Assembly (NCBI GenBank): GCA_018712435.1
Contig: DVGZ01000047.1
Location: forward strand, 1-33,251
DNA from: Candidatus Caccousia avicola
GTDB lineage: Bacteria; Bacillota; Clostridia; Oscillospirales; Acutalibacteraceae
DNA length: 33,251 bases
Direction: 5' to 3'
Below, piece after piece: positions 5,136 through 22,845 of this stretch. Position numbers and translations under genes: made by a program. Position 1 is the stretch's first letter; every line of letters begins with the position of its first letter. The notes beneath the pieces were generated by a model. The model was not told the DNA's origin and ran no database searches. It worked only from the letters and a program-made list of their open reading frames with translations.

Positions 5136-7695
5136 AAAGAACGATTCCCCCTCTTTCATGGTGCGTCTTGCCACCCTGATTGTGGACAAACGAAACCTGA
5201 TCTTTTTTCTGTACATCTGCGCGGCCATCTTCTCGATCTTTTCGCGCAACTGGGTGCAGGTGTGCAACGACATCACCCAGTATCTGCCCCCGACGACGGA
5301 AACGCGCCAGGGCCTGACGCTCATGCAGGAGGAGACCACCACCTTCGCCACCGCGCGCGTGATGGTTTCCCATGTCACGCTTGACACGGCGGAGCATCTG
5401 GCCGATCAGCTCGCGGAGCTGGAGGGCGTGACCTCCGCGACGCTCGGAAACAGCCTGGGCCCGCAGGAGGAAACCACTCCCACACCCGAGGAGATCAACT
5501 CCTACTGCCACGGCGACGATGCGCTCATCTCCGTCACCTTCGCGGGCGAGGAGACCGATCCCGTCAGCCTGGAAGCGCTCGGCCGCGTGCGGGAGCTGCT
5601 CGCCCCCTACGACGTGCAGATCGACACGCCCGTGGGCAGCGATTCCTCCACCACGCTGCAATCGGAAATGGACGTTATTCTGGTGATCGCGGCCATTGTG
5701 ATTCTGCTTGTGCTGCTGCTGACCTCGAAATCCTACGCCGAGATCCCGGTGCTCGTCATCACCTTCGGCGCGGCGGCGGTGCTGAACCTCGGCACGAACT
5801 TCCTGCTCGGGGAGATCTCCTTCGTCTCGAACTCCGTGACGGTGATCCTTCAGCTGGCCCTCGCGATCGACTACGCGATCATCCTGCTGCACCGCTTTCT
5901 GGAGGAGCGCGAGCACGCCGGGGACCGCGAAGCGTGCATCACCGCGCTGAGCGTCTCGATCCCGTCGATCTCCGCCAGCAGTCTGACGACCATCTCCGGC
6001 CTGGCGGCCATGATGTTCATGGAATTCCGCATCGGCTTCGACATGGGGCTGGTGCTGATCAAGGCCATCTGCCTGAGCATGCTCTCCGTGTTCACCCTCA
6101 TGCCCGGTCTGCTCATGATCTTCTGCCGCGCCATGGACCGCACACGGCACAAGAACTTCATCCCGTCGATCGACCGCTGGGGCAAGCTCGTGGTAAAGCT
6201 TCGCTATGTGGGCGTGCCGGTGTTCGCCGTCTGTCTGGTGGGCGCGTTCTTCCTCTCCAACCAGTGCCCCTATGTGTACGGCTACAGCGAGATCCACACC
6301 GCCCGCCAGAACGAAGCACAGATCGCGCAGGAGACGATCGACGAAGCGTTCGGCTCGCAGAACGTTATGGCCATGCTGGTGCCGCGCGGGGACTACGAGA
6401 GCGAGAAAGCCCTGCTGAATCGGCTCGAAACCTATGAGGAGATTGACTCCGCGCTCGGACTGGCGAACATTGAAGCCATGGACGGCTACACGCTCACCGA
6501 CGCGCTCACGCCCCGCGAGTTTTCGGAGCTGATCGACCTCGACTACGAGCAGGCCCGCCTGCTCTACGCCGCCTACGCCGCCGATCGCGAGGAATACGGG
6601 CGGATCGTCGGGGGCGTGGAGGATTACAAAATCCCTCTGATGGATCTTTTCCTCTTTATCCACGACTGCAAGGAGGACGGCTACATCACGCTGGACGACG
6701 AGCTGAACGATCAAATCGACGATCTCTACACCCAGCTGACCGACGCGCGCGCCCAGATGCTCGGGGAAAACTACTCCCGCCTGGTGCTCACGCTGAACCT
6801 GCCGGAGGAGGGCACGGAAACGTTCGCGTTCCTGCAAACGCTCCACAAGGAAGCGGAGCGCTACTACCCAGCCGAAAGCGTCTATCTTGTGGGCGACTCC
6901 ACCAGCGATTACGACCTCTCCACGTCCTTCGCGCGGGATAACATTCTGATCAGCGTGCTGACAGTTGTGTTCGTCATCGTGGTGCTGCTGTTCACCTTCC
7001 TCTCCGTCGGCCTGCCGATCCTGCTGATCCTCGTGATTCAGGGAAGCATCTGGCTGAACTTCGCGTTCCCCGGCTTCACAGGGGAGCCGATCTTCTTCAT
7101 GAGCTATCTGATCGTCACGGCCATCCAGATGGGCGCGAACATCGACTACGCCATCGTCATCTCCACCTGGTACAACGATCTCAAAACCACCATGCCGAAA
7201 AAGGAAGCCATCATCCGCGCGCTGAGCCTGTCCTTCCCGACGGTGCTCACCTCCGGCAGCATTCTTTCCATCGCGGCCTTCCTGATTGCGCAGATCACCA
7301 CCGAGCCGAGCATTGTCGGCATCGGCCAGTGCCTGTGCCGCGGCACGCTGATCTCGATGTTCCTCGTCATGTTCATCCTGCCGCAGATCCTCCTGCTCGG
7401 GGACAGCCTTGTGGAGCGCACACGCTTCAACATCAAGCTGCCTGTGCCGGATCGCGGCCGCCTGACGCGCGGCAGCGGATCGTTTTATGTCAACGGCCGG
7501 GTGCGCGGACAGGTGAACGGCATCATCGACGCAGATGTGCGCGGCGTGATTCGCGGAACCGTGTCCGCCACGGTGGAAACGGGACAGGACGGCGGCATGT
7601 CGGATGAACCCGCTCTGCCGGAGGAATCCGAAGCAAACGAATCCCCGTCGGACGAGGGAAAGGAGGAACCACACGATGAAACGACAGTGGAATAA
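5128..7695 (+). CDS. MMPL/RND-superfamily membrane exporter
   Basis: An 855-residue protein of the MMPL (RND) family, proton-driven exporters of lipids or other hydrophobic molecules. It has the two-repeat layout: TM1 (residues about 18-38), an extracytoplasmic domain, TM2-6 (about 187-335) and TM7 near 355. A second extracytoplasmic domain follows, then TM8-12 (about 610-755). The conserved aspartate/tyrosine motifs of both halves are present (LAIDYAIILLHRF and ANIDYAIVISTWY), which in the family relay protons. The start is GTG at 5128 with AAAGGAGGGAG upstream. The cytoplasmic tail has a repetitive valine/glycine stretch (YVNGRVRGQVNG, DVRGVIRGTVSA) reminiscent of a short beta-helix, then an acidic tail. 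Substrate unknown; the neighbours suggest an envelope function under TetR control. Confidence 0.93.
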   Translation: MSKKNDSPSFMVRLATLIVDKRNLIFFLYICAAIFSIFSRNWVQVCNDITQYLPPTTETRQGLTLMQEETTTFATARVMVSHVTLDTAEHLADQLAELEGVTSATLGNSLGPQEETTPTPEEINSYCHGDDALISVTFAGEETDPVSLEALGRVRELLAPYDVQIDTPVGSDSSTTLQSEMDVILVIAAIVILLVLLLTSKSYAEIPVLVITFGAAAVLNLGTNFLLGEISFVSNSVTVILQLALAIDYAIILLHRFLEEREHAGDREACITALSVSIPSISASSLTTISGLAAMMFMEFRIGFDMGLVLIKAICLSMLSVFTLMPGLLMIFCRAMDRTRHKNFIPSIDRWGKLVVKLRYVGVPVFAVCLVGAFFLSNQCPYVYGYSEIHTARQNEAQIAQETIDEAFGSQNVMAMLVPRGDYESEKALLNRLETYEEIDSALGLANIEAMDGYTLTDALTPREFSELIDLDYEQARLLYAAYAADREEYGRIVGGVEDYKIPLMDLFLFIHDCKEDGYITLDDELNDQIDDLYTQLTDARAQMLGENYSRLVLTLNLPEEGTETFAFLQTLHKEAERYYPAESVYLVGDSTSDYDLSTSFARDNILISVLTVVFVIVVLLFTFLSVGLPILLILVIQGSIWLNFAFPGFTGEPIFFMSYLIVTAIQMGANIDYAIVISTWYNDLKTTMPKKEAIIRALSLSFPTVLTSGSILSIAAFLIAQITTEPSIVGIGQCLCRGTLISMFLVMFILPQILLLGDSLVERTRFNIKLPVPDRGRLTRGSGSFYVNGRVRGQVNGIIDADVRGVIRGTVSATVETGQDGGMSDEPALPEESEANESPSDEGKEEPHDETTVE

Positions 7696-10600
7696 AGCGG
7701 CGGCATCCCTTTTGGCCGCGGTGATGCTGGTGTTCTCCTGCCCCATCCCCGCGCTGGCTCAGGAGGAGACGGTGCACATCCGCACCGTACAGGATCTGCA
7801 GGCCTTTGCGAAAAGCTGTACGCTCGACAGCTGGTCGCGCGGAAAAACGGCGGTGCTCGAAGCCGATCTCGACCTTACGGGGGTCAGCTTTTCCGGCATT
7901 CCCACCTTCGGCGGCGTATTTGACGGCGGCGGCCACACCGTCTCCGGCCTTTCCCTCACGGGAGACGGCGGGACGCAGGGGCTGTTCCGATCCGTCCAGA
8001 AGGGCGCGGTCGTGCAGGATCTCCGCGTGGAGGGAACGGTTTCCCCCACCGGGACGCGCGATATCGTGGGCGGCGTGGCCGGGCGCAACGAAGGAACGCT
8101 GCTGCGCTGCTCCTTCTCCGGCACAGTGCGGGGCGGCACGGACGCCGGCGGCATTGCCGGAAGAAACGAAGCGGGCGGCGAGCTGACGGGCTGCACCTTT
8201 GAGGGAAGCCTGTCCGGCGAGCTGCACGCGGGCGGCGTTGTGGGCCAGAACCTCGGCAGCGCCGTGGAGTGCATCAATCTGGGCAGCGTCAACACCACCC
8301 AGCTCGAGGAGGAAGCCACAGCCCAGACCGTGCTGGAGGAAAGCTCCGTCACGGACGCGGCCACGGATCTCTCCGGCTGGACAGACGTGGGGGGCGTGGC
8401 GGGCTACTCCGCCGGAATCCTCCAGAACTGCCGCAATGAGGGCAGCGTCGGCTATCCGCACATCGGCTACAACGCCGGCGGTGTGGCCGGACGGCAGAGC
8501 GGCCTGCTCGACGGCTGCACCAACAGCGGCAGCGTGCAGGGCCGCAAGGACGTTGGCGGCATTGTGGGCCAGCTGGAGCCGGAGGTGACGCTGCTGTACA
8601 GCCAGACCTTTCTGCAAAAGCTTGGCGACGAGCTTTCCACCCTGCAAACGAAAACGGACGCTCTGCTGAACGACGCGGGGAACGTCTCGGGCAACCTGTC
8701 CGCCAGCCTTTCCGCCCTTTCGGATCGGACCGACGAAGCACGCGCCGCCGCAAACGCGCTTTCCGGCGCGGCGGCGGACTGGGCCGACGAGGGCACGGGC
8801 CAGCTCAACGATCTCTCCGCGCGCGTCTCCCGTGCGCTGAACCTGCTCGACCCGGCGCTGGCAAACGCGGACGATCAGCTCCGCACGCTCTCGCAGGCAG
8901 CCGGTAAGCTGTCCGACGCGATGGACGAGGCGGAACGGCTCGGCAGACTGACGGGCAAGAGCCTGCAAAGCGCCCGCGCCGCCCTGCGCGACCTGGAAAC
9001 CGCTCTGGAAAAAACGCGCGCCGCGCTCAAGGACGTGCAGACCGCCGGACAGGAGCTGCGCGCGTCGCTGGGCAATCTCTCCGAGATGAAGCAGGCCGCT
9101 GAAAAGCTGCTGGCCGCGTGCGAAACGCTCAACACGACCGTGACCGGCGGCTTGCAGACGAGCGCCGCCGCCCTGCGTAAAGCATTGGATGAAGCACAGC
9201 TTGCCGTGAACGGCACGGACGATCTGGCCGCCGCCCTGGGCAGCGCGTCGGACGATCTGGCGCGGGCGCTCTCCGGACTGGCGGACTCCTCCGAAAGCCT
9301 GCACAGCGCCGCGCAGGAGCTGACCAATGGCCCGTCCCTGCACATTCCCGCGCTGAACGGGGATGTGACGCAAAAGGCGGACGACCTCAACGCATCCCTT
9401 TCCGCGCTGACGCAGGCCGCGAACGATCTGAACGCGGCGGCAAGCGGTTCCTCGGACAGCCTGCTCGGGGATCTGCGGAACATCAACCAGCAGATGGGCG
9501 TGATTGCGTCGCTCATTCAGGACGAAGGCTCCCGCCAGGCCGACGCGCAGGATCGCTATGAGGACGTTTCCGATCCGGCGCAGCTGCGCAGCCAGCGGGC
9601 GGGCCGCGTCTCCGCGTGCCGGAACACCGGCGCGGTGGAGGGCGATCTGAACACCGCCGGAATCGCGGGCTCCATGGCCATTGATCTGGAATTCGACCCC
9701 GAGGACGATCTGACGCAGAAGGGCGACCGCTCCGTGAGCTTCCTCATTCAGACGATGGCGGCGGTGTTTGACTGCGTGAACGAAGGGACCGTCACCGTGA
9801 AGAAGGACTGCGCGGGCGGCATCGTGGGACGCATGGACCTCGGCATGGCGGACGGGTGCGAAAGCTACGGAGACGTAAAAAGCACCGGCGGCAGCTGCGC
9901 GGGCGGCGTCGCGGGCGACGCGGCCGGGGCGATCCGAAGCTGCTGGAGCCGGTGCACGGTCACGGGAAAACACAATGTGGGCGGTATCGCGGGGCGCGCC
10001 GCCTCTCTGACGGACTGCCGTTCCGCCGCGCAGGCGCACGGGGAATCCAAGGCGGGATCCATCGCCGGGGAATTGATGGAGGACGCGACGGCCAGCGGCT
10101 GCCTGTATGCCGAGGGCCTGACAGCCGCCATTGACGGCGTGAGCTATGCCGGGCAGGCCGAGCCCATCGCCTTCTCCGACCTCTGCGCCCTGCCGGACGC
10201 GCCGGAAAACTTCTCCAATCTCACGCTTACCTTCAGGGATGGGGAATCGGTGGTCGCGACGCTGACCGTCCCCTACGGCGGCGCGCTGGACTCCCTGCCG
10301 GAGATCCCGGCGCGGGAGGGCTGCTCCGCGTCGTGGCCCGCGCTGGACTACGGCTGCATCACGGCAAGCCGCACCATCGAGGCCGTCTACACGCCGTACC
10401 GCTCCGCCCTCTCCGACGGCAGCGAACCGGCGCAGATTCTCGCGGAGGGCCGTTTCGGCACGGCGGCAAAGCTTTCCGCCGTCTCGGAGGAGAGCACCTG
10501 GCAGGATGCGTCGGGCGTTTCCCACACCGGCACGGTCTGGACCGTGACGGTGACGGACCCGGAGCTGGGCGTTTCGTCCCGCACGCTGCACTGCCGCCTG

Positions 10601-10852: not shown

Positions 10853-12673
10853 TTACGCGCCGCTCTGGCACGCGTCATGCGTGAACTGCTGCAAATACAG
10901 GTCGCGGTAATAGCCCTTTTTGCGCAGCAGCTCCTCATGCGTGCCGCTCTCCACGATCGTTCCGTCGCGCACCACGAGAATCAGGTCGGCGCGGCGGATC
11001 GTGGAAAGGCGGTGCGCGATGAGGAAGGAGGTGCGGTCGCGCAGAAGCAGCTCCGTCGCCTTCTGGATCAGCTGCTCGGTCTGGGTGTCGATGGAGCTGG
11101 TGGCCTCGTCGAGCACAAAGATGCGCGGGTCGGCCAGCACGGCGCGGGCAAAGGAAATCAGCTGCTTTTCGCCGGTCGACAGGCGGTCGCCGCCCTCGCC
11201 CACGTTGCTCTCATAGCCGTTTTCCAGCTTCGCCGCCACCTGGTCGGCGGAGACGGCCTTCGCCGCCGCGATAACCTCCTCGTCCGTCGCGTCAAGACGG
11301 CCATAGCGGATGTTCTCCATCACGGTGCCGGAAAACAGGTGCGGGCTTTGCAGCACATAGCCGATGCTGCTGTGCAGCCACAGCTGGCTGCGCTCGCGGT
11401 AATCCTTGCCGTCGATCAGCACCTGTCCGGCCGTCGGTTCAAAGAACCGGCACGCGAGATTCACCAGCGTGCTTTTTCCAGCCCCCGTCTCGCCCACGAT
11501 GGCAATCGTGGACCCGGCGGGGATTTTCAGGTTAAAGTGGCTCAGCACGTCCTCGTTGCCGTCCGGATAGCGGAAGGAAACGTCGCGGAATTCGATCTCG
11601 CCGCGGATCGGCTCCCAGTTCTCGCGCTTGGCCTCAAAGGCCGTGCCGTAGCGCTCGATCACCTCGGGCGTGTCCGTGATCAGCGGCTTCTGGTCAAGCA
11701 ATCCCATGACGCGCTCGATGTTCGCCTGAAGCGACAGAATATCCGCGATATTCCGCGCGATCTGCTGGATCGGCTCGAAGATGCCCACCGCGTAGGACGT
11801 GAACGCCGAGAGCGTGCCGATCAGCAGAAGATCGGAGAGCACCAGCGAGCCGCCGCGCGCGAGGACGATCGCCGTGGTCAGCGAGCTGAAAAACATGACA
11901 AGCGGGATATACACGGCGGAGAGCCGCGCCGCCTTCACGGAGGACACGCGCATGTCCTGCGTCACGGACTCAAACTCGCGGCAGTTCTGATCCTCAATAA
12001 CGAGCGTTTTCGACGTGCGCGCGCCCATGATTCCCTCGTTGTACGCGCTGGTGATCCGCGAGTTCATCTTGCGCACGCGGCGGTTCCAGCGCAGGATGCG
12101 GTCCTGGAACCAGCCGGTCAAAAGCGAAATCACCGGCACAATGAGGATGACCGCCGCGGCCAGGCCGGGATTGAGGAAAAACATCGCGATAAACACGCCG
12201 AGCACATAGAAAATTGCCCACAGGATATCCACCATATTCCACGCGATCATGCCCGCGATACGGTTGGTGTCGCTCATGATCCGGGAGAGCAGATAGCCCA
12301 CCGGGGTGACGTTGTAATACGAGAGCGAGAGCGTCTGCAAATGCACAAAGCAGGCGCGCTTCATGTCGCGCCCCAGGCTCATCTCAATGCGCATGGAGCG
12401 GCGTGTGAACAGGATGACGGCCAGCGTTTGCAGCACGATCACGGCGGCATACGCCGCCGCGAACCACGGCAGGCCGGTGTCGTCCCCCGTCTCGATGAAT
12501 TCATCGATCGCGTACCGCTGGAACAGCGGCAAAGCAATGTCGATGCAGGCGCACACAAGGTTCAGCGCCAGCACCGCTAAAATCAGCTTTCGGTAGGGCT
12601 TCAAAAAGGGAAGCAGCTTTTTCCAGGACGACCATTCAAACGATTTGGTATATTCCTGCTCATCATACCCCAT
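10853..12673 (-). CDS. Heterodimeric ABC exporter, BmrD/YheH-type subunit with consensus ATPase site
   Basis: A 606-residue half transporter: an ABC-type I exporter membrane domain (residues about 30-320, six helices, with PLFQRYAIDEFI early) fused to an ATPase. Walker A is GETGAGKST near 390 and Walker B is FVLDEATSS with the catalytic Glu intact. The signature is the altered LSTGEKQ. This pairing of a good Walker B with a poor signature is what the consensus-site subunit of asymmetric exporters (BmrD, TM288-type) shows. The start at 12673 (MGYDEQEYTKS) has AAGGAGG and overlaps the partner gene by 11 nt. It ends 9 bp from the convergent surface-protein gene with no clear terminator. Likely role: multidrug or amphiphile export. 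Confidence 0.93.
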   Translation of the reverse strand: MGYDEQEYTKSFEWSSWKKLLPFLKPYRKLILAVLALNLVCACIDIALPLFQRYAIDEFIETGDDTGLPWFAAAYAAVIVLQTLAVILFTRRSMRIEMSLGRDMKRACFVHLQTLSLSYYNVTPVGYLLSRIMSDTNRIAGMIAWNMVDILWAIFYVLGVFIAMFFLNPGLAAAVILIVPVISLLTGWFQDRILRWNRRVRKMNSRITSAYNEGIMGARTSKTLVIEDQNCREFESVTQDMRVSSVKAARLSAVYIPLVMFFSSLTTAIVLARGGSLVLSDLLLIGTLSAFTSYAVGIFEPIQQIARNIADILSLQANIERVMGLLDQKPLITDTPEVIERYGTAFEAKRENWEPIRGEIEFRDVSFRYPDGNEDVLSHFNLKIPAGSTIAIVGETGAGKSTLVNLACRFFEPTAGQVLIDGKDYRERSQLWLHSSIGYVLQSPHLFSGTVMENIRYGRLDATDEEVIAAAKAVSADQVAAKLENGYESNVGEGGDRLSTGEKQLISFARAVLADPRIFVLDEATSSIDTQTEQLIQKATELLLRDRTSFLIAHRLSTIRRADLILVVRDGTIVESGTHEELLRKKGYYRDLYLQQFTHDACQSGA

Positions 12674-14489
12674 GGCTTTCGCCTCCTTCCTCCTCACGCA
12701 GCAGCTCGCGGTCGGCGGCCGCCGTCTGGATATCGTACGTTTCGCGGTAGATCCCGCCGCGCGCGAGAAGCTCCTCGTGCGTGCCGATCTCCGCGACTTT
12801 TCCGTTTTGCAGGACCAGGATTTGATCCGCCTGCATCAGCGTGGTCACGCGGTGCGAGATCAGAATGACCGTCGCGCTGCCCTTCGCGTCGTGCAGAGAG
12901 GCGCGGATCTGCGCGTCCGTCTCCGCGTCCACGGCGGAAAGTGAGTCGTCGAAAATGAGGACGGGCGCGTCCTGCATCAGCGTGCGCGCAATCGCGACGC
13001 GCTGCTTCTGTCCGCCGGAGAGCGTCACGCCGCGCTCGCCCACGATCGTGTCGTAGCCCTCGGCAAATTCCAGAATGGCCTCGTCCACATGGGCCGTGCC
13101 CGCGTGGCGGCGCACCTCCTCGATGCCCGCGCCAGGGCGCACCGCCGCGATGTTCTCCCGGATGGTGCGCGAGAACAGGAACGGCTCCTGCAAGACCATG
13201 CCGATGTTCCGCCGCAGATACGGGCGGCTGATGTTCGAGAGCTCCACGCCGCCGATGGTGATCTTACCGCCGTCCGGCGGCAGCTCATAGAGCCGGTCGA
13301 GCAGGTGCATCATGGTTGATTTGCCGCTTCCCGTGCCGCCGAGGATCGCAAAGGTTTTGCCCGCCGGGATCGTGAAGCTCACGTCCTGCAAAACGGGCTG
13401 CTCGCCGTAGGAGAACGAGACATGGTCGAACACGATGTCCTTGTCCATCGGCGGGGTCTGCGCGTCCGGCGGATCCTGCTCCGTCTCGGAATCGAGGATG
13501 TACGCGAGACGGTCGATCGACACGCCCGCCTTACTCATCTCCGAGAGAATGCGGCCCAGGCCGCGCACCGGCCATACCAGCGACTGGTTGTACGACACGA
13601 ACGCCAGAAATTCACCGAGCGTGATTTCCCCGTTCACCGCCTGCGTCACGCCGACGCAGATTACCGTGAGAATCTGAAGGCCCGTGATCAGGTCCCCGAT
13701 TCCCCAGTACGCGCTCAGCAGCCGTCCCAGGCGGATCCAGAGCATCGCCCAGCGATCGTTTTTCTGATCGAAGCGCTCCACCTCATACTTCTCGCGCCCG
13801 AACGCGCGCACGACGCGCACGCCCGTCAGGTTCTCCTGCACCGCCGCCGAAAGCTCGCCCTCGGCCTCGTCCGCCGTGAGGAAGCGCTTTGCGATTTTGG
13901 AATAAAAGAATCCCGAGTACAGCAAAATAACAGGCAGGAAGCCGAGTGCGATCAGCGAGGTTTTCCAGTTCATGGAGAACATCACCGCCAGCGAAAAGAC
14001 CACCAGAAACACGATGCGGAACACTTCGAGCAGCTGGTTTGTCACGAAGTTGCGCACCACCTCCACGTCCGACGTACACCGCTGGATGATTTCACCGGTG
14101 CTGTGCTGGACGTGCCATGCGTAGGGCAGGCGCTGGATATGCTGGTACAGCCCGTCCCGCATGGATTTCACAAAGCTCTCCGATCCCTTGGCCGTGGTCA
14201 TGCGGCTGCCGTAGGTGCACAGCCCGGAGAACACCGCCACCAGCAGCAGAAAACCCGCCGCGGCGAAAAGCTGCGTCATCGGCTCCGCCTGCGTCAGCCC
14301 CGGGACCAGCAGCGTCACCACCTCCGGGAACGGCTCTCCGCCGAGCACGCAGTCCACGGCCACGCGGACCACCTGCGGCGTCAGCGAGCCGAGCACCGTG
14401 TTGCACACGGAGAACAGCAGGGTCAGCGCGAAGATCCACGCGTAGGGCCGCAGAAAGCGCCAAATCAGCGCGCGTTTTGTCTCTTTCAA
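12663..14489 (-). CDS. Heterodimeric ABC exporter, BmrC/YheI-type subunit with degenerate ATPase site
   Basis: A 608-residue half transporter with a six-helix membrane domain (residues about 20-320) and an ATPase: Walker A GGTGSGKST near 380, canonical signature LSGGQKQR, and Walker B LIFDDSLSAVD. In Walker B, aspartate replaces the catalytic glutamate. Together with the partner's intact DEATSS and poor LSTGE, one of the two ATP sites of the pair is predicted to be non-hydrolytic, as in BmrC/BmrD. I chose TTG at 14489 as the start (LKETKRALIW) because GAGGAGGGG sits just upstream. An in-frame TTG at 14537 lies in the terminator tail and is unlikely. The gene is preceded by a leader peptide and terminator, suggesting attenuation. 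Confidence 0.93.
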   Translation of the reverse strand: MKETKRALIWRFLRPYAWIFALTLLFSVCNTVLGSLTPQVVRVAVDCVLGGEPFPEVVTLLVPGLTQAEPMTQLFAAAGFLLLVAVFSGLCTYGSRMTTAKGSESFVKSMRDGLYQHIQRLPYAWHVQHSTGEIIQRCTSDVEVVRNFVTNQLLEVFRIVFLVVFSLAVMFSMNWKTSLIALGFLPVILLYSGFFYSKIAKRFLTADEAEGELSAAVQENLTGVRVVRAFGREKYEVERFDQKNDRWAMLWIRLGRLLSAYWGIGDLITGLQILTVICVGVTQAVNGEITLGEFLAFVSYNQSLVWPVRGLGRILSEMSKAGVSIDRLAYILDSETEQDPPDAQTPPMDKDIVFDHVSFSYGEQPVLQDVSFTIPAGKTFAILGGTGSGKSTMMHLLDRLYELPPDGGKITIGGVELSNISRPYLRRNIGMVLQEPFLFSRTIRENIAAVRPGAGIEEVRRHAGTAHVDEAILEFAEGYDTIVGERGVTLSGGQKQRVAIARTLMQDAPVLIFDDSLSAVDAETDAQIRASLHDAKGSATVILISHRVTTLMQADQILVLQNGKVAEIGTHEELLARGGIYRETYDIQTAAADRELLREEEGGESHGV

Positions 14490-14533
14490 AAAATCCCCTC
14501 CTCTATCATGTTCGGGCGTTTCCCTTCGAAAAC

Positions 14534-14570
14534 GCAAAAAAAGCGCCTCCGGCCCAAGCCGGAGGCGCTT
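14534..14570 (-). terminator. Attenuator terminator before the ABC exporter genes
   Basis: A perfect 13-bp stem (AAGCGCCTCCGGC / GCCGGAGGCGCTT, 4-nt loop) followed on the minus strand by TTTTTTTGCGTTTT. It lies between the leader peptide stop (14592) and the first ABC gene (14489), inside the same transcription unit, so it must be read through for the exporter to be expressed. Confidence 0.85.
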
Positions 14571-14591
14571 ATCCGCACAAAATACACCCCG

Positions 14592-14684
14592 TTACAACAG
14601 ACGGGGACGGCACGCGGACAGACGTCTTCCAGAGAGCCCGGATCTTTTGTTGTTCTGAGCTGTGATTCGATTCTTACCGATCAT
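14592..14684 (-). CDS. 30-residue leader peptide of the ABC exporter operon
   Basis: A short frame starting MIGKNRITAQNNK and ending CRPRLL-stop, basic (seven Arg and three Lys). It has the strong ribosome binding site AAAGGAGG 8 nt before its ATG and lies about 50 nt downstream of a near-consensus promoter. It ends 21 nt before the terminator hairpin. Position and size match the bmrB leader that controls bmrCD in Bacillus subtilis by ribosome-mediated attenuation, though I see no sequence similarity that I could assert. The segment TCTGTCCGC in its 3' half (14614-14622) is complementary over 9 nt to the site just before its own start codon (14685-14693). Confidence 0.7.
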   Translation of the reverse strand: MIGKNRITAQNNKRSGLSGRRLSACRPRLL

Positions 14685-14704
14685 TCTGTCCGCCTCCTTT
14701 CTGT

Positions 14705-14728
14705 ATTATGATTTCTTTTTGTCATAAT
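14705..14728. promoter_or_regulatory. Inverted repeat downstream of the ABC-operon promoter
   Basis: ATTATGA and TCATAAT arms separated by 10 nt, located just after the predicted transcription start of the ABC operon. It could be an operator or a 5'-end hairpin; there is no evidence to choose. Confidence 0.4.
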
Positions 14729-14742
14729 AGCAAGACAAGGGT

Positions 14743-14771
14743 AGTATACCGCCTGCATTTCTGAAAGTCAA
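14743..14771 (-). promoter_or_regulatory. Promoter of the leader-peptide/ABC exporter operon
   Basis: TTGACT (14766-14771) and TATACT (14743-14748) with a 17-nt spacer on the minus strand, close to the sigma-A consensus. It is 58 nt before the leader-peptide start codon. Confidence 0.8.
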
Positions 14772-14800
14772 GGGGAATTTACAAAAAATATGGGAATGCG

Positions 14801-15049
14801 TTATCTCAGCTCACGGATGCAGTTCTCACAGAGATAGCATCCCGGTTTGAGCTCTTTCAGACCCTCCTCCGACTGGCACCGCAGACACACCGGCTTCACC
14901 TTTTTCAGCACAATCTCCCCGCTGCTCTCCCGCAGCGAAATCTGGAACTCCTCTCCCTTTTCGATCCCCGCCTGTTTGCGCAGCTCGATCGGAAGAACAA
15001 TGCGTCCCAACTCATCCACCCGGCGGGTAACCGCCACCGGTTTTTCCAT
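14801..15049 (-). CDS. AbrB/SpoVT-type DNA-binding protein with C-terminal zinc ribbon
   Basis: An 82-residue protein. Residues 8-52 form the AbrB swapped-hairpin fold (TRRVDELGRIVLPIELRKQ, then GIEKGEEFQISL), a dimeric DNA-binding domain of transition-state regulators. Residues 57-78 carry CLRC and CENC, a likely zinc ribbon. The start at 15049 (MEKPVAVTR) has GGAAGGGAGGGG upstream; a longer frame to 15118 starts inside the promoter. It is divergent from the XRE regulator at 15225, with shared operator-like sites between. A partial relative with the same domain pair is at 33024-33251. Target genes unknown. Confidence 0.9.
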   Translation of the reverse strand: MEKPVAVTRRVDELGRIVLPIELRKQAGIEKGEEFQISLRESSGEIVLKKVKPVCLRCQSEEGLKELKPGCYLCENCIRELR

Positions 15050-15097
15050 CGTTTCCCCTCCCTTCCGCAGGCCGCTGATACTGGATTCCATTTTCCC

Positions 15098-15126
15098 ATG
15101 GTAAGATACTTTTTCCAAACAGTCAA
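15098..15126 (-). promoter_or_regulatory. Promoter of the AbrB-like gene
   Basis: TTGACT (15121-15126) and TACCAT (15098-15103) with 17 nt between, on the minus strand. The -35 box touches the first of the repeated CTATTC-type sites. Confidence 0.6.
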
Positions 15127-15218
15127 CCCCTATTCAGGGATTTTTCTCCGAATAGAGCATTTTCCCTTTTTCCCACTGTTGGTATGCTAAGGGGTGTAAA
15201 GGTCCCGAAATAGGGGGT
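15125..15218. promoter_or_regulatory. Three related operator-like sites between the AbrB and XRE genes
   Basis: AACCCCTATTCAGGG (15125-15139) is repeated in inverse orientation as CCCGAAATAGGGGGT (15204-15218), agreeing at about 12 of 15 positions. A third shorter copy, TCCGAATAGAG, lies at about 15147-15157. The sites overlap or flank the promoters of both divergent regulators. A weak plus-strand promoter (TTTTCC 15160-15165, TATGCT 15183-15188, 17-nt spacer) for the XRE gene lies among them. Auto- or cross-regulation is inferred. Confidence 0.5.
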
Positions 15219-15224
15219 GTCTGG

Positions 15225-15557
15225 ATGGACTGCAAAAGCATGGGAAGGAAATTGAGGGCAAGCCGCGCACAGCACGGCTGGAGCATGAAGGAATGCGCGG
15301 ATCGGGTCGGAATCAGCACGCGCTACCTCGCGGACATTGAGCGCGGCGACAAGGTTCCGAAGCTGGAAACTCTCCTCCAGCTGCTCAATACCCTGGACGT
15401 TTCCGCCGACTCCGTCCTCCAGGACAGCCTGTCGGTCGGGTATGAAACCAAAAGCAACGATCTGATGCGCCGTCTGAACACACTCGACAGCGCGCACCGG
15501 AAACAAGCCATTGATTTGTTTGAGGCAATTCTGTCCGTTTTGGGAGAGTCTGTGTGA
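15225..15557 (+). CDS. XRE-family helix-turn-helix regulator
   Basis: A 110-residue cytoplasmic protein. Residues 7-62 form a Cro/C1-type HTH: GRKLRASRAQHGWSMKECAD, then VGISTRYLADIERGDKVPKL, the family's recognition-helix and following turn. The C-terminal part is a short helical region (LMRRLNTLDSAHRKQAIDLF), likely for dimerisation. A GGGGG-containing ribosome site precedes the ATG. It is divergent from the AbrB-like gene. No phage genes are nearby, so it is more likely a chromosomal regulator than a prophage repressor. Targets unknown. Confidence 0.9.
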   Translation: MDCKSMGRKLRASRAQHGWSMKECADRVGISTRYLADIERGDKVPKLETLLQLLNTLDVSADSVLQDSLSVGYETKSNDLMRRLNTLDSAHRKQAIDLFEAILSVLGESV

Positions 15558-15570
15558 ATCTCTGTCCCGC

Positions 15571-15599
15571 TTGCCAAAGGGATATAAATCGGGTATAAT
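15571..15599 (+). promoter_or_regulatory. Promoter of the rhomboid-like gene
   Basis: TTGCCA (15571-15576) and TATAAT (15594-15599) separated by 17 nt, just after the XRE stop codon. Confidence 0.8.
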
Positions 15600-15666
15600 C
15601 GTTTTATGATTTTTTGAAGTCTTTCTGTGATGCGGCGCAGAGAGGAAAGGAGCGAAACCTTATCGT

Positions 15667-16308
15667 ATGAACTGGATTGACCGCCTGGAGCGCAAAGCCA
15701 GAAGGCTGGCCGTTCCGAACCTGATGTTCTTCCTTTCGGGAGCCATGCTGCTGGTCTATATTCTCAGCATGTTCTTTCCCGCCTTGCCGATGCTGCTCTC
15801 GCTGGATCGAAGCTTTCTGCTGCGCGGGCAGGTGTGGAGGCTTGTCACCTTCCTGTTTCTGCCGCCCTCGTCCTCTCCGCTGTGGATTCTCTTTAATCTG
15901 TATTTCTACTGCCTGCTTGGACGCGGGCTGGAACAGCAGTGGGGCGTGTTCCGCTTCAACCTGTTTTACCTGTGCGGCGTGGTGGGCGCGATCCTCACGG
16001 CGCTTATCACCGGCTTCGGGAGCAACTATTATCTGAACCTCTCGCTCTTTCTCGCTTTCGCGGCGTTTTATCCCGATTACCGGCTGATGATTTTCTTTGT
16101 GCTGCCGGTTAAAATCAAGTATCTCGCGATTCTCGACGCGGTGCTTCTGCTCGTCAGCTTTATCCTTGGCGGCTGGCCGGCCAGAATCGGTATTTTGATG
16201 TCCCTCGCAAACATCTTCCTGTTTTTCGGCGGAAGCAGTCTCAAGCGTCTCAAAACGCAGATGGGCTACTGGAAAACCCGCCGCAACTTCCGAAAATATA
16301 TGAAATAA
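15667..16308 (+). CDS. Rhomboid-fold membrane protein lacking protease residues
   Basis: A 213-residue integral membrane protein with about six helices. The rhomboid/derlin signature is visible: the L1-loop motif GQVWRLVTFLFLPP at residues 54-67, then NLYFYCLLGRGLEQQWG matching the second-helix region of derlin-like rhomboids. The catalytic serine motif GxSG is not found; the corresponding area reads GFGSNYYLN. The histidine expected in the last helix is also missing (SLANIFLFFGG). It is therefore probably a pseudoprotease that binds or handles membrane proteins. The AAGGAG site lies about 14 nt before the ATG, further than usual, but no other start is available. Its own promoter is at 15571-15599. 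Confidence 0.8.
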   Translation: MNWIDRLERKARRLAVPNLMFFLSGAMLLVYILSMFFPALPMLLSLDRSFLLRGQVWRLVTFLFLPPSSSPLWILFNLYFYCLLGRGLEQQWGVFRFNLFYLCGVVGAILTALITGFGSNYYLNLSLFLAFAAFYPDYRLMIFFVLPVKIKYLAILDAVLLLVSFILGGWPARIGILMSLANIFLFFGGSSLKRLKTQMGYWKTRRNFRKYMK

Positions 16309-16310
16309 AA

Positions 16311-16352
16311 AACAGCCCTCCTGGCGGCGCTCCTGCCGCGAAGAGGGCTGTT
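16311..16352. terminator. Bidirectional terminator
   Basis: AACAGCCCTC pairs with GAGGGCTGTT around an inner GCGGC-containing loop, with A run before and T-rich tail (CTGTTTT) after. It lies between the convergent rhomboid-like and flippase-like genes. Confidence 0.85.
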
Positions 16353-16369
16353 CTGTTTTGCGATGGAAA

Positions 16370-17449
16370 TCAGGCGCTTTCCGCGCCGTCCCCGGCGGGG
16401 GAAGGCTCCGGATCGTGCTTGGCGTAGCGTTTTCCTCCCCACACGGAGAAGAAGCCGCCGAGCGCAATGTTCACATAATACGTCAGGAGCCGCCACAGGA
16501 ACATGGCCGGGACGATATCCTGCCCGAAGAATTTGCCGAAGAAGATGACAAACGATCCCTCCGCGCCGCCTGACGCGCCCGGCAGAGGAACGAACGCGGA
16601 GACCATCGCCACAAATACCTGCGCCGCCACCATCGTGACGACGGAGACGCTCTCCGCAGGCAGGGCAAAGCTCCGATAAATGAAATACGAGATCAAACTG
16701 TTGACCGTGATCTGCACGACGGTGAGCACAGCGGTGACAAAGTAGAGCTTAAACGAGCGGCCCATGATCCCGGCGCTCTTGTGGAACATGGCAAGCTGCG
16801 CGTGGATCCGCTGGTAACGCCGCACGGGATGGCGCACCAGGCGCATCCGGTACAGAAGGCGCAGAATAAAACGCATGGCGCGGTCGGTGCCCCGCTCGCT
16901 CACGGTGAAGGTGAGCACGGCGGCGATAAAAGCGCTGTTTGAGAGCAGGCCGATCACCGTGACAAACGAGAAATTGCTGATGTGGCTCTGGAAAAAGCCG
17001 AGCTGGGTGGAGACGAGCAGCAGCGAATAGAGCACCATCACCACCTGGTACACCAGCGTTTTCATGGCGATGACGCTGCCCGCCCGGCCGGTGTCCATGC
17101 CCATCTTGTTCATGGAATAGATCTGCATCGGCTGCCCGCCGGTCGAAAACGGCGTGATGGCGCTGTAGAACAGGCCCGTCATTCCCACGGAGAACGACCG
17201 CCCGAAGCTCCACCACGGGCAGACATGGCGGCAGAACAGGTTCAGCGTGAAGCCCTCGAGCAGCAGCGTGCCGCCCGCCGCCGCGATCGCCAGCGCGAGC
17301 CATTCCCAGCGCAGGCGCAGCAGAATCTCGCCCAGATTCTGCACCCCGCCGTTGGAGAGCAGGAAGTACAGGACAAACACCATCGTGATGGAGATCGTCA
17401 GGATCGGGAACAGGTTCTTTTTCAGCTTGCTTGAAAAATATAATCGCAT
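16370..17449 (-). CDS. Flippase-like integral membrane protein (UPF0104/lysyl-PG synthase TM domain family)
   Basis: A 359-residue polytopic protein with about eight membrane segments. Family hallmarks are GMTGLFYSAITPFSTGGQPM near residues 88-107 and PLPGASGGAEGSFV near residues 296-309. This is the membrane domain found alone in YbhN-type proteins and fused to a synthase in MprF, where it flips aminoacylated phospholipids. Alone, its substrate is unknown; lipid translocation is inferred. A GC-rich polar tail ends the protein. The start at 17449 (MRLYFSSKLKK) has AGAGGT upstream and a promoter at 17500-17529. It is divergent from zapA. Confidence 0.9.
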   Translation of the reverse strand: MRLYFSSKLKKNLFPILTISITMVFVLYFLLSNGGVQNLGEILLRLRWEWLALAIAAAGGTLLLEGFTLNLFCRHVCPWWSFGRSFSVGMTGLFYSAITPFSTGGQPMQIYSMNKMGMDTGRAGSVIAMKTLVYQVVMVLYSLLLVSTQLGFFQSHISNFSFVTVIGLLSNSAFIAAVLTFTVSERGTDRAMRFILRLLYRMRLVRHPVRRYQRIHAQLAMFHKSAGIMGRSFKLYFVTAVLTVVQITVNSLISYFIYRSFALPAESVSVVTMVAAQVFVAMVSAFVPLPGASGGAEGSFVIFFGKFFGQDIVPAMFLWRLLTYYVNIALGGFFSVWGGKRYAKHDPEPSPAGDGAESA

Positions 17450-17499
17450 CCCATAACCTCTTGTTTCATAAAATTCAAAGCTTCTGTTTTCGTCTTTCT

Positions 17500-17529
17500 A
17501 TTGTATACCAATCCGCCCGTTTTCACAAC
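17500..17529 (-). promoter_or_regulatory. Promoter of the flippase-like gene
   Basis: TTGTGA (17524-17529) and TACAAT (17500-17505) with 18 nt between on the minus strand. Confidence 0.6.
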
Positions 17530-17620
17530 CCCGGCGCACGGGAATCACGCGGGTTTTAAAAGCCGGTTCTCCTATGCTATCATCCATTTCTCAATCCTTT
17601 ATCAACTTTTCCCGGAACGC

Positions 17621-17650
17621 TTGCCGCCCCGCCGTCTTTCGTGCTATGAT
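17621..17650 (+). promoter_or_regulatory. Promoter of zapA
   Basis: TTGCCG (17621-17626) and TATGAT (17645-17650) with 18 nt between. A small CCCCGAAAGGGG hairpin with a GAAA loop follows in the leader. Confidence 0.6.
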
Positions 17651-17704
17651 AAAGAGAAACAGAACGCGCCCCCGAAAGGGGCTTTCCGGAAAGGGTGACA
17701 GGCT

Positions 17705-18220
17705 TTGAGTAAAAATAGAATCCGCCTTGAGATCTGCGGCGTGGAGTGCGTCATCGGAAGCGACGACAGCGAGGAGTACATCCGCGCGATCGGAGCCGAG
17801 GTGGCCCGCTCCATGAACGCCATGTGCCGTCAGAACGAACGCATTTCCATCGCCACGGCGGCTGTGTTTGCCGCGCTCAATTATTGTGACGACGCGCAGA
17901 AGGCAAAAGCCGCCGCGGACAACCTGCGCGCCCAGATCAAGAATTATGTGGAGGACGCTTCCCACGCGCGCATGGAGGCGGACGAGGCCCGCCGCGAGGC
18001 CGATCGCCTGAGCCGCGAGGTGCAGCGCCTGCGCGCCCGCCTGGCCGAGGAGGAAACGGACGAGCCGAAGCCGGAAAGCCCGCCCCAGCACAAGATGCAG
18101 GAGGAGAAGCCCGCCCCCGCCGAAACGCCCCAGCCGCAGGAGAACGCGCCGGAGACCGTCGATCCCGACGCGGAGAAGGGCTTTATCTCCTTCTTTGAGA
18201 AGAAAACAGACGAGGAGTGA
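17705..18220 (+). CDS. zapA: ZapA-like cell division protein with extended tail
   Basis: ZapA binds and bundles FtsZ at the division site. Residues 1-85 match the ZapA domain (NRIRLEICGVECVIGSDDSE, then YIRAIGAEVARSMN). A charged coiled coil (about 85-120, with RREADRLSREVQRLRARLAEEE) follows. A long Pro/Glu/Lys linker then leads to a short hydrophobic end (GFISFFEKK). At 171 residues it is longer than usual ZapA (about 90), because of the linker and tail, which might bind another division protein. The start is TTG at 17705 with GAAAGGGTG upstream. It is followed by the U32 gene with almost no gap, a pairing seen in other Firmicutes. Confidence 0.88.
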   Translation: MSKNRIRLEICGVECVIGSDDSEEYIRAIGAEVARSMNAMCRQNERISIATAAVFAALNYCDDAQKAKAAADNLRAQIKNYVEDASHARMEADEARREADRLSREVQRLRARLAEEETDEPKPESPPQHKMQEEKPAPAETPQPQENAPETVDPDAEKGFISFFEKKTDEE

Positions 18221-18228
18221 CCGCCGTG

Positions 18229-20301
18229 ATGGAAATTCTTGCCCCAGCGGGCTCCCCGAAGAGCTTGCAGGCTGCCGTGCGCGCCGGAGCGGACGCCGTC
18301 TATCTGGGCGGCGGATCGTTTTCGGCGCGCGCGTTTGCGCATAACTTTGACGACAACGCCCTGCGCGAGGCCGTGCGCTACTGTCACGCGCGCGGCGTGC
18401 GCGTCCATCTGGCTGTGAACACGCTCCTGCGCGACGAGGAGATCGAGCGCGCCGTGGAGTTTGTCCGCTTTGCCTGCACCCTGCCGGTGGACGCGGTGCT
18501 GGTGCAGGACACAGGGCTGCTGCTCCGCCTGCGCGAGTGCGCGCCCGCGCTGCCGCTGCACGCTTCCACCCAGATGAGCCTGCACACCCCGCAGGGCGCG
18601 GCCGCCGCCGAGGAAGCGGGCATGACGCGCGCCGTGCTCTCCCGCGAGATGACCGCCGCCGAGCTTCGCGAAACGCGCGGAGCCGTGTCAATTGAGCTGG
18701 AAAGCTTTGTACACGGCGCGCTGTGCATGTCCGTCTCCGGGCAATGCTATTTCAGCGCCATGCTCGGCTCGCGCAGCGGCAACCGTGGCATGTGCGCCCA
18801 GACGTGCCGCCTGCCCTTTTCCGCGCCCGGCGGCACCGGGCACGACCTGAGCCTGAAGGATCTTTCGCTCATTCCCCGCCTGCGCGAGCTGGAGGACGCG
18901 GGCGTGATGAGCGCTAAAATAGAGGGACGCATGAAGCGGCCGGAGTATGTGGCCGCCGCCGTCGCCGCCTGCCGCCGTGCCGCGGACGGTGAGGAGATCC
19001 CGCCCCGCCTGCTGGAAAATCTGGAAGCCGTGTTCTCGCGCTCCGGGTTCACCACGGGCTTTTTCGACGCGCCCGCGCGCGGCCGGACGCGCTCCCTGTT
19101 CGGCACGCGCTCGAAGGAGGACGCCGCCGCCGCGACGGGAGCGGTGTTCGGAGAGCTGCACGGATTATACCGCGAGGAATATCCCCGCGTCGCGGTGCAC
19201 ATGAAGCTGACGGCCCGCGCCGGGGAACCGGTCTCGCTCACCGTGACGGACGCGGAGGGCTTTTCCGCGACGGCTGCGGGCGCTCCGCCCGAAGCGGCCC
19301 GCACCCGGCCCGCCGACCCGGCCCGCTGCGCCGATCAGCTCAAAAAGACCGGCGGCACGCCGTTTTACGCCGGGGAGGTATCGTGCGATCTGGACGAAGG
19401 GATCGCCCTGCCCGCTTCCGCGCTCAACGCTTTGCGCCGGGAAGCCCTCGCTTCGCTTTTGACGCAGCGCGAGGAGCGTCCCCCGATCCCGTTTACCCCC
19501 GTGCCCTTCTCCGCTCCGGCGCATCCGGCGCGGGAGGGGGCGCTTCCTCTGCGTGCGCGGTTCCCCTCGGCCCGTCTGCCGAAGGAAGCGTTGCGCTGCG
19601 AGCTGTGCTTTGTTCCGTGGGACACGAAGGAGGACGCGCTTTCCCGTTTGATCGACGAGGGGTATTCCCTCGCTCTGGAGCTGCCCCGGGGGCTGTTCGG
19701 CCTGGAACGGGAAGCCGCGCGGCGGCTGGAAGCGGCGCGGCGCGCGGGCGTGACGCACTGCTGGGCCGGAAACCTCGGCGCGTTGCGGCTGGCCCGGGAG
19801 CTGGGCTTCGCCGTCCACGGCGGCTTTTCGTTGAACATCACCAACACGGCGGCGCTCACGTTTTATGAGCGCTTCGGCCTGACCGACACGGAGCTGAGCT
19901 TTGAACTGACGCTCCCCCAGAGCGCGAAGATCGGCGGGCTTCTGCCGCGCGGCCTGCTGGTGTATGGCCGTCAGCCGCTCATGCTGACGCGCGCCTGCCC
20001 GGCGGCGAACGGCCCGCGCGGCTGTCTGAACTGCCACCAGACGGGAGAAGTCCCCGTCCTGACGGACCGGCGCGGCGTGCGCTTCCCGGTGCAGTGCACG
20101 GGAGCGTGCAGCGAGGTGCTCAACAGCGTCCCGCTGGAACTGTGCGACCGGCCGGACGAGCTGCGCTGGGCCGATTTCGGCGTGGTGCGGCTGACCTGCG
20201 AGCCCGAAGCGGAATGGGGAGAAATCCTGCGCCGCTGCTTCGCGGGCGAGCCGCCCGCCGGGGAATGGACGCGCGGCCTTGCGTACCGTGGAATCGAATG
20301 A
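18229..20301 (+). CDS. U32-family peptidase/RNA hydroxylation-type protein
   Basis: A 690-residue cytoplasmic protein. The N-terminal TIM-barrel-like part begins EILAPAGSPKSLQAAVRAGA. The U32 signature occurs near residues 160-190 (SFVHGALCMSVSGQCYFSAM, then GNRGMCAQTCRLPF), with the conserved cysteines likely holding an iron-sulfur cluster. A collagenase-like DUF3656 region follows, and a second cysteine group (CPAANGPRGCLNCHQTG) lies near residues 588-604. Some relatives (RlhA, TrhP) are needed for hydroxylation of rRNA or tRNA rather than proteolysis, which may be the true role. I prefer ATG 18229 because homologues start with MEILAPAG; GTG 18226 is an alternative. Confidence 0.9.
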   Translation: MEILAPAGSPKSLQAAVRAGADAVYLGGGSFSARAFAHNFDDNALREAVRYCHARGVRVHLAVNTLLRDEEIERAVEFVRFACTLPVDAVLVQDTGLLLRLRECAPALPLHASTQMSLHTPQGAAAAEEAGMTRAVLSREMTAAELRETRGAVSIELESFVHGALCMSVSGQCYFSAMLGSRSGNRGMCAQTCRLPFSAPGGTGHDLSLKDLSLIPRLRELEDAGVMSAKIEGRMKRPEYVAAAVAACRRAADGEEIPPRLLENLEAVFSRSGFTTGFFDAPARGRTRSLFGTRSKEDAAAATGAVFGELHGLYREEYPRVAVHMKLTARAGEPVSLTVTDAEGFSATAAGAPPEAARTRPADPARCADQLKKTGGTPFYAGEVSCDLDEGIALPASALNALRREALASLLTQREERPPIPFTPVPFSAPAHPAREGALPLRARFPSARLPKEALRCELCFVPWDTKEDALSRLIDEGYSLALELPRGLFGLEREAARRLEAARRAGVTHCWAGNLGALRLARELGFAVHGGFSLNITNTAALTFYERFGLTDTELSFELTLPQSAKIGGLLPRGLLVYGRQPLMLTRACPAANGPRGCLNCHQTGEVPVLTDRRGVRFPVQCTGACSEVLNSVPLELCDRPDELRWADFGVVRLTCEPEAEWGEILRRCFAGEPPAGEWTRGLAYRGIE

Positions 20302-20326
20302 ACCAGAGCGAAAGGATGCTTTTTCT

Positions 20327-20791
20327 ATGGACGAACTGAAAATCAAACGACTGCGGGAAAACGCCATTGTCCCCACGCGCGCCACAGAGGGATCGGCGGG
20401 GATGGATCTGAGCGCCTGCCTGGACAAGCCTCTGGCCATTCCCTCCGGCGGACGGGCGCTGATCCCCACGGGGATCGCGATCGCCCTGCCCGGCCCGTCC
20501 TATGTGGCCCTGCTCTTTGCCAGAAGCAGTCTCGGCATACGCCGGGGGCTGATGCTCTCGAACGGCGTGGGCGTGATTGACAGCGACTATCGCGGGGAAA
20601 TCCTTATCGGGGTATATAATTTCACGAACGAACCGTGCATTGTGGAAAACGGGGAACGTTTGGCGCAGCTGGTGGTGGTTCCCACCGCGCTGCTGCCGGT
20701 GTGCGAGACGCAGGATCTGGAGGGCACGGCGCGCGGCGCGGGCGGGTTCGGCTCCACCGGCACAGCCGCCATGAGGGAGGAAACGACATGA
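20327..20791 (+). CDS. dut: dUTP diphosphatase
   Basis: Hydrolyses dUTP to dUMP and diphosphate, keeping uracil out of DNA and feeding thymidylate synthesis. All five trimeric dUTPase motifs are readable in 154 residues: 1 GSAGMDLSA, 2 ARSSLG, 3 GVGVIDSDYRGEI, 4 GERLAQLVV, 5 GAGGFGSTG. The start at 20327 (MDELKIKRL) has AAAGGA upstream; frames from 20279 overlap the U32 gene. The stop overlaps the next start (ATGA), implying translational coupling. Confidence 0.96.
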   Translation: MDELKIKRLRENAIVPTRATEGSAGMDLSACLDKPLAIPSGGRALIPTGIAIALPGPSYVALLFARSSLGIRRGLMLSNGVGVIDSDYRGEILIGVYNFTNEPCIVENGERLAQLVVVPTALLPVCETQDLEGTARGAGGFGSTGTAAMREETT

Positions 20792-21054
20792 AAAAGAACA
20801 TCATCCGCACGCTTCTGCTGGTCATCCTGCTGCTTTTGGCCATCGTGCTGGGCAAGGTGATCGGGAATGTGACGGCGGGCGTGTCGTTCCTGTCGTGGCT
20901 GGGGCTTTCGGCGCAGTTCGGGCTGGCTCCCGCCACGCTCGATCTGGCCGTGCTGACGGTGACGTTCGGCGTGCAGATCAGTGTGAACGTCGCGCAGGCA
21001 ATTCTGCTCCTTGTGGCGATCCTTGTCTACAGCCGGATCCATATTCACGAATAA
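20788..21054 (+). CDS. DUF4321 small membrane protein
   Basis: An 88-residue protein with two or three membrane helices (residues 7-29 TLLLVILLLLAIVLGKVIG and 66-83 NVAQAILLLVAILVY). Size, hydrophobicity and position directly before maf fit the DUF4321 family found in Clostridia; the function is unknown. It overlaps dut by 4 nt and has AGGGAGGAAA upstream of its ATG. Confidence 0.85.
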   Translation: MKKNIIRTLLLVILLLLAIVLGKVIGNVTAGVSFLSWLGLSAQFGLAPATLDLAVLTVTFGVQISVNVAQAILLLVAILVYSRIHIHE

Positions 21055-21067
21055 GGGAGGGGCTGTC

Positions 21068-21643
21068 ATGCTGTATCTGGCTTCCGCGTCTCCCCGACGG
21101 AAAGAGCTTCTCACGCTGGCGGGCTATTCCTTCACCGTGCTCCCCGCCAACGCGGACGAGACGGCCCCTTTGGGCTTGTCCCCGCGCGAAACCGCCGGAT
21201 TGCTGGCACGCCGCAAGGCGGAGGCCGTGCTGGCGCTGCCCGCATTTTCCGATCGTCAAAAGCCGGGGGACGTGATCCTCGCGGCGGATACGGTGGTGGA
21301 TCTCGGCGGAAAAATCCTCGGCAAGCCGAAGGATCGGGAGGACGCAAAACAGATCCTGCTCTCCCTGTCCGGCAGGCGGCACAGCGTGCACACCGGCTTT
21401 TGCGTGCTCGCGGGCGCGAAGAAGATGTGCGGGGTGGAATCCACGGCGGTGGAATTTTATCCGCTCACGCAGGAGGAGATCGAAACCTATCTTGACACAG
21501 GCGAACCGATGGACAAGGCGGGAGCCTACGGGATCCAGGGGCGCGGCGCGCTTTTTGTGCGTCGGATCGCCGGAGATTATTACACCGTGGTCGGCCTTCC
21601 GATCGCGCGTATCGACCGGATTCTGCGCGCCCTTTCCGTCTGA
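21068..21643 (+). CDS. maf: Maf-family nucleoside triphosphate pyrophosphatase
   Basis: Maf proteins hydrolyse dTTP, UTP and modified nucleotides, and are genetically linked to shape and septum genes. In 191 residues the hallmarks are ASASPRRKELL at the N-terminus, ILAADTVVDLGGKILGKPKD near 75-94 with the catalytic aspartate, and DKAGAYGIQGRGALFV near 150-165. The start at 21068 has GGGAGGGG upstream. It follows DUF4321 by 13 nt and precedes mreB, matching the maf-mreBCD order of many Firmicutes, though radC is absent here. Confidence 0.95.
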   Translation: MLYLASASPRRKELLTLAGYSFTVLPANADETAPLGLSPRETAGLLARRKAEAVLALPAFSDRQKPGDVILAADTVVDLGGKILGKPKDREDAKQILLSLSGRRHSVHTGFCVLAGAKKMCGVESTAVEFYPLTQEEIETYLDTGEPMDKAGAYGIQGRGALFVRRIAGDYYTVVGLPIARIDRILRALSV

Positions 21644-21718
21644 CGCGCCGCGTCGCAAACCGGGCGAAATCCTACAGAATCGGCGGCTCCGGGTCGCCTC
21701 GAATTTACATTTTTTTTA

Positions 21719-21747: not shown

Positions 21748-21830
21748 AGCCTTATATTGTGTCATTATGTCAAGTTGAAAAATTTAGAGGGACGGGCGCC
21801 GATGCTGGGGCCCGGAAAGGGGATACATTC

Positions 21831-22844: not shown

Positions 22845-22845
22845 G

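Follow-up and report, generated by a model that had tools for sequence, protein, structure and literature searches.

Attenuation through a leader ORF is a known kind of control, and an earlier survey described leaders resembling attenuators for many ABC transporters, including a Lactobacillus multidrug exporter (PMC2965389). In the vmlR leader of Bacillus subtilis, ribosomes arrested at initiation are described as preventing an anti-antiterminator, upon which the antiterminator forms, and variants of the leader peptide (MDN and MDK) are reported to be functional as well (PMC9226507). For bmrB-bmrCD of the same species, induction by antibiotics has been reported to require translation of the leader (PMC4191407). 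In Escherichia coli, the uORF toiL upstream of topAI was proposed to sense many classes of drugs, with stalls at several positions opening one structure (PMC12121999).

The window analyzed here is the whole stretch of 33,251 nucleotides from Candidatus Caccousia avicola (contig DVGZ01000047.1 of assembly GCA_018712435.1). On its minus strand it carries, in this order, a strong promoter, a 30-codon leader, a terminator and two ABC half-exporters, all of which were found where a first-pass annotation made from the letters alone had located them. The features are the following.

14743-14771, minus strand: promoter, TTGACT (14771-14766), 17 nt, TATACT (14748-14743)
From 14700, minus strand: ribosome site of the leader, AAAGGAGG
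14682-14700, minus strand: segment 1, AAAGGAGGCGGACAGAATG, comprising the ribosome site of the leader and its start codon; it would form the 5' strand of the anti-antiterminator
14592-14684, minus strand: leader ORF, 30 codons and a stop (MIGKNRITAQNNKRSGLSGRRLSACRPRLL), ATG at 14684, TAA at 14594-14592
14609-14622, minus strand: core of segment 2, TCTGTCCGC(GTGCC), partner of segment 1 in helix 1:2
14611-14632, minus strand: extended segment 2 (CTGGAAGACGTCTGTCCGC...), proposed 5' strand of antiterminator 2:3
14587-14606, minus strand: hairpin CCCCGT/ACGGGG, enclosed by 2:3; the stop codon extends over its loop and 3' arm
14558-14578, minus strand: segment 3, GTGCGGATAA and the terminator 5' arm GCGCCTCCGGC, proposed 3' strand of 2:3
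14536-14570, minus strand: intrinsic terminator AAGCGCCTCCGGC-TTGG-GCCGGAGGCGCTT, 13 perfect pairs followed by T7
12663-14489, minus strand: ABC half-exporter 1, TTG start at 14489, LSGGQ signature, Walker B ending in DD (degenerate site), motifs read by eye
10853-12697, minus strand: ABC half-exporter 2, LSTGE signature, Walker B ending in DE, motifs read by eye

Both exporter halves match multidrug ABC exporters in protein comparisons, and the Walker B ending of the first half together with the signature of the second, as read by eye, fits a heterodimer with one degenerate site. As in bmrB, a heterodimeric multidrug ABC exporter is preceded by a leader ORF and a terminator, but bmrB is described as having 53 codons and a terminator inside the coding region (PMC4191407), whereas the window terminator starts 22 nt past the leader stop. 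BmrC and BmrD are exporter halves of the same broad type as those of the window, yet several other exporters match the window halves better than they do (E 2e-91 for BmrC and E 7e-91 for BmrD). The initial label of the locus as bmrB-like thus fits as a kind of mechanism, while membership of bmrB is doubtful: the terminator lies outside the ORF, and the transporter resembles other exporters at least as closely as BmrCD. An AbrB/SpoVT-type gene (14801-15118, minus strand) adjoins the leader promoter upstream; the 3' end of a similar AbrB gene is also present in the closest relative (locus L007), and by eye none is seen at the other leaders. As AbrB is reported to repress bmrBCD in B. subtilis, this neighbor is suggestive, although AbrB control has been demonstrated for bmrB (PMC4191407), whereas at the leaders studied here an AbrB-family gene lies next door in the lineage of the window only.

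Compared with Rfam, the leader gave no match at gathering score, and the matches up to E 10 were all far below gathering scores. Together with a conserved part that consists of ribosome site, start codon and ORF, this argues against a riboswitch or T-box, responding to a metabolite or to tRNA, in place of a ribosome sensor. We regard such an RNA as highly improbable here, even though a T-box leader (RF00230, 103 bits) does occur elsewhere in the window, at 3712-3952 on the minus strand, just upstream of an ilvB-like gene in an ilv cluster.

Searches with the exporter were extended from the family (17 of 398 genomes at E 1e-230) to the order (10 of 375 genomes at 1e-240, five new loci) and to two other families (7 of 230 genomes with four new loci and 14 of 148 genomes with 13 new loci, both at 1e-235). 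They yielded 39 distinct exporter loci, for each of which the upstream region was read. The same layout precedes 25 of these 39 ABC orthologue loci, distributed over 15 genera and three families (6, 5 and 4 genera). Within the genus of the window, all five genomes possess the exporter and all five the leader; among named relatives, Anaeromassilibacillus sp. An200 (locus L037) is the closest, and Anaeromassilibacillus is placed in Acutalibacteraceae. A promoter is found in 25/25 related leaders, where it matches 10-11 of 12 consensus bases, a quality equal to that of the window promoter. The leader ORF varies from 20 to 45 codons, and the terminator is located 22-62 nt past the leader stop (counted from the start of the stop codon; 22 nt in the window) in all 25 loci, L080 being the weakest case. 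What is expected of a leader-ORF attenuator, namely a promoter, a leader ORF with a ribosome site and an intrinsic terminator before the gene, is therefore present in 25/25 leaders. A small hairpin at or beside the leader stop codon, which may act as a pause or a spacer, was noticed in the loci read by eye, among a set of 12 loci.

Inspection by eye found no such element upstream of the other 14 loci (L013, L014, L015, L016, L041, L064, L076, L077, L078, L079, L081, L082, L083 and L084). One of them, L064, has a promoter and a terminator correctly placed, without a clear ribosome site or leader ORF, and may be a decayed or different version. The upstream regions of more distant exporters (L017-L029) were inspected as well and left out of the 39-locus count. 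Five of these (L020, L022, L023, L024 and L028) have strong promoters followed by extended upstream regions in which CCGT-type inverted segments recur; these are possibly other structured leaders, for which a search of Rfam returned no match. The exporter frame contains one internal TGA in each of L031 (genome G200) and L016 (genome G028).

Other search handles added little to this set. When named genomes were scanned with the N-terminal part of the exporter, two loci came up, both previously in the set, and a family-wide DNA pattern, whose third block GGGCG excludes the window's own GAGGCGC, gave five hits in 4 of 398 genomes, of which three were loci already in hand. A second copy was also sought in 1,004,661 of the 2,486,925 bases of the own genome. 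Of the short ORFs preceded by a ribosome site (532), 11 were followed by a terminator, and the window leader ranked first; the runner-up (L133), which has a TTG start, was taken as chance.

The central observation is the pairing between the ribosome site and start codon of the leader and its own last codons. In the window, 14685-14693 is an exact 9-nt complement of 14614-14622, as the first-pass annotation had pointed out, and so is the 7-nt complement that it had indicated between the same ribosome site (14691-14697) and the terminator 5' arm (14561-14567, within segment 3). When the partner was dinucleotide-shuffled in the window sequence alone, the first complement was equalled in 7/500 and 10/300 shuffles and the second in 30/500 and 14/300, so that each is only moderately unusual in this single sequence. 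It is the covariation in relatives that indicates that the 9-nt pairing is real. Indeed, segment 1 pairs with the 3' part of the leader in 25/25 loci, with strands as different as GCGGACAGA/TCTGTCCGC in the window, GGCAGGCAA/TTGCCTGCC in L031, GGCGCACAA/TTGTGCGCC in L065 and GGCATACAGGA/TCCTGTATGCC in L070, and in many loci the helix extends over the start codon.

In an alignment of 24 distinct rows (L007 was omitted, its row being identical to that of L006), 92.7% of the cells are standard pairs, and six of the eight pairs are altered on both sides, a count that was reached in 16/500 column shuffles. Paired cells and covariation score were equalled in 0/500. Since the register was picked by pairing, slid controls of this alignment test flatter the helix, and MAFFT on whole leaders misplaced segment 2. 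A fairer test searched the last 60 nt of each leader for the best duplex at any position and swapped leaders between 15 groups. With the 25 loci, the cognate sum was reached in 0/50,000 swaps in all six tests, with raw energies or after subtraction of shuffled energies; with the first 12 loci, it was reached in 16-418 of 40,320. Locus by locus, between 0 and 74 of 300 shuffled leaders equalled the real one. Judged on these comparisons, 1:2 is a covarying RNA helix kept by compensatory change and absent from Rfam. The exclusive pairing of ribosome site and leader codons had been proposed at first pass with covariation among homologous loci as its check, and the covariation turns out to be strong.

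The same annotation had gone further and assigned the antiterminator to the 7-bp pairing 1:3: a ribosome slowed late in the leader would cover segment 2, and the freed ribosome site would pair with the terminator 5' arm and abolish termination. Besides the exact complement, this reading can call on the rarity of the arm, as CGCCTCC occurs in 1 of 35 terminator-like hairpins in 242 kb of the own genome, that one being the window's own; GCGCCTCC as a common terminator sequence of this genome is ruled out by the same count. However, 1:3 displayed no cognate preference in the swap tests, whether with 25 loci (13,806-28,817 of 50,000) or with 12 (5,419-33,600 of 40,320). It is weaker than -12 kcal/mol in 12/25 loci and merely reaches -5.9 to -9.5 kcal/mol in 8/25, where 1:2 persists. 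In the related loci L039 and L009, the arm is altered to CGCCCCC with no matching change opposite. The pairing is strong chiefly where both strands are near-invariant, and covariation is consequently silent on that part. Neither covariation nor cognate preference was thus seen for 1:3 in three tests, and we consider the late-stall antiterminator unlikely, although the folding results below leave it some likelihood in the lineage of the window. Two parts of the initial reading stand: an ABC exporter preceded by a leader ORF and a terminator, and the exclusive pairing 1:2.

An alternative partner for the terminator arm arose from folding the leader without its ribosome site. In this fold, the extended segment 2 pairs with the stretch preceding the arm and with the arm itself, giving a long imperfect helix (2:3) that encloses the stop-codon hairpin. 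With the segment 1 region omitted, 2:3 is part of the minimum free energy structure of 11/12 loci; L009 fails, and the helix is weak in L008 (outer arm pairs with a probability of 0.26) and L010. Its cognate sum was reached in 129-3,342 of 40,320 swaps with 12 loci and in 932-8,238 of 50,000 with 25, the upper value coming from one residual test. These numbers suggest a moderate cognate preference and a weak covariation, in agreement with 2:3 as the alternative antiterminator. Because both use segment 2, 1:2 and 2:3 are mutually exclusive, and an antiterminator of this type would need a ribosome held early and not late. As regards the covarying exclusive pairings of an attenuator, the comparison of relatives hence points strongly to 1:2, moderately to 2:3 and not to 1:3.

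The dominance of 1:2, by far the strongest signal and one that covers the start codon in many loci, would also suit a simpler role, in which the helix does no more than restrict leader translation (self-sequestration once a single pioneer ribosome has passed), while the exporter is kept constantly low by the terminator. Yet 2:3 covaries above chance in most tests, and the terminator found behind the stop in every one of the 25 loci would be purposeless if leader translation alone were controlled, which makes this role quite improbable in our opinion.

Folding with a ribosome mask, a crude model, was used to compare ribosome positions; the mask covered ~30 nt around the P site, and the score was the gain of the terminator arm from upstream partners before the 3' arm exists. 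Without a ribosome, the arm gain is small, as 1:2 is then formed. With the mask at codon 1 or 3, this gain exceeds that of the ribosome-free state by 2 kcal/mol or more in 19/25 loci; a mask late in the leader frees the arm in 21/25 and a mask at codon 9 in 5/25. The early gain differs from that of shuffled leaders with a group z of -4.1, and the late gain from that of shuffled 5' ends with a group z of -2.8, the latter being in line with the late-stall proposal. In these models, folding would permit both an early and a late route, and covariation favors the early one. In every locus compared, neither antiterminator comes near the terminator in stability, so the outcome must depend on kinetics, as the first-pass annotation had anticipated in stressing timing.

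That both routes fold leaves some room for a two-ended sensor, a tentative and rather doubtful idea, in which start and end of the leader hold each other and each can also capture the terminator arm. Stalling of a ribosome at the start would let the end block the terminator (2:3), and stalling at the end would let the start do so (1:3). Any long stop except in mid-leader would then turn the exporter on, an arrest peptide would be unneeded, and the free drift of the peptide in three families while the helix stays would be explained.

The leader peptide is indeed poorly kept. Segment 2 occurs in all three reading frames across loci, and the peptides score only 11-27 against that of the window, with the exception of the closest relative (127). 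It is therefore the RNA pairing that is conserved and not the peptide. A search of 200 family genomes with the peptide gave one true relative (87%) and three weak matches (E 0.04-0.09), making it useless as a search handle. Drug-specific sensing by an arrest peptide, as in tlrB/yxjB of B. subtilis, was considered and rejected. That system is similar in its leader peptide, intrinsic terminator and ribosome-dependent readthrough, but it is described as requiring a drug-specific RYR arrest motif at the C terminus of the peptide, none being conserved in the 25 leaders here, and as having the stalled ribosome itself block the terminator (PMC6851288). The motif R/K-X-R/K is not enriched in our set, with 14/25 peptides versus a shuffled mean of 12.1 (490/2000 shuffles had as many or more), and it lies near the peptide end in 5/25, which also weighs against a late stall. 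Given this freedom of the peptide, the sensor probably responds to any slowing or block of translation and not to one drug-specific arrest peptide.

Taken together, we slightly favor a ribosome-sensing transcription attenuator with a logic similar to that of vmlR, built from pairings 1:2, 2:3 and the terminator (3:4), in which the leader ribosome site would form part of the anti-antiterminator. On a leader that is empty or carries a normally finishing ribosome, 1:2 would form, shutting leader initiation as well; the terminator would then fold and the exporter would be off. If a ribosome-targeting drug, or a queue behind a stalled ribosome, kept a ribosome at the start codon or within the first few codons, segment 1 would be covered and segment 2 left free to pair with the pre-arm stretch and the terminator 5' arm, so that RNA polymerase would read into the exporter pair. 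We infer that specific drugs could trigger the window leader in this manner. The vmlR leader, as described, likewise has its ORF in a helix that excludes the antiterminator, just as 1:2 shares segment 2 with 2:3 in the window. It differs in serving an ABC-F factor and not an exporter, in a uORF of three codons with a ribosome site reported to lie unpaired ahead of the stem (in the window, ribosome site and start codon are a helix strand), and in also hiding its own ribosome site (SL-4) (PMC9226507). A precedent for a uORF answering many drug classes is provided by toiL, which is however described as acting on topAI translation and Rho and not on an intrinsic terminator (PMC12121999).

Among the papers searched on bmrCD and ABC-transporter leader attenuation, uORF anti-antiterminators and attenuation in Anaeromassilibacillus, no title or abstract opening described this element, which is no proof of absence. 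The variant, in which the ribosome site would be a strand of the anti-antiterminator, appears to be new, and the element is defined by covariation in 15 genera and absent from Rfam. If the proposed mechanism is true, several families of gut Clostridia would control a drug exporter by a ribosome sensor independent of its peptide, in which the switch strand would be the leader's own ribosome site and which would act as a general detector of translation stress, not of a single drug.
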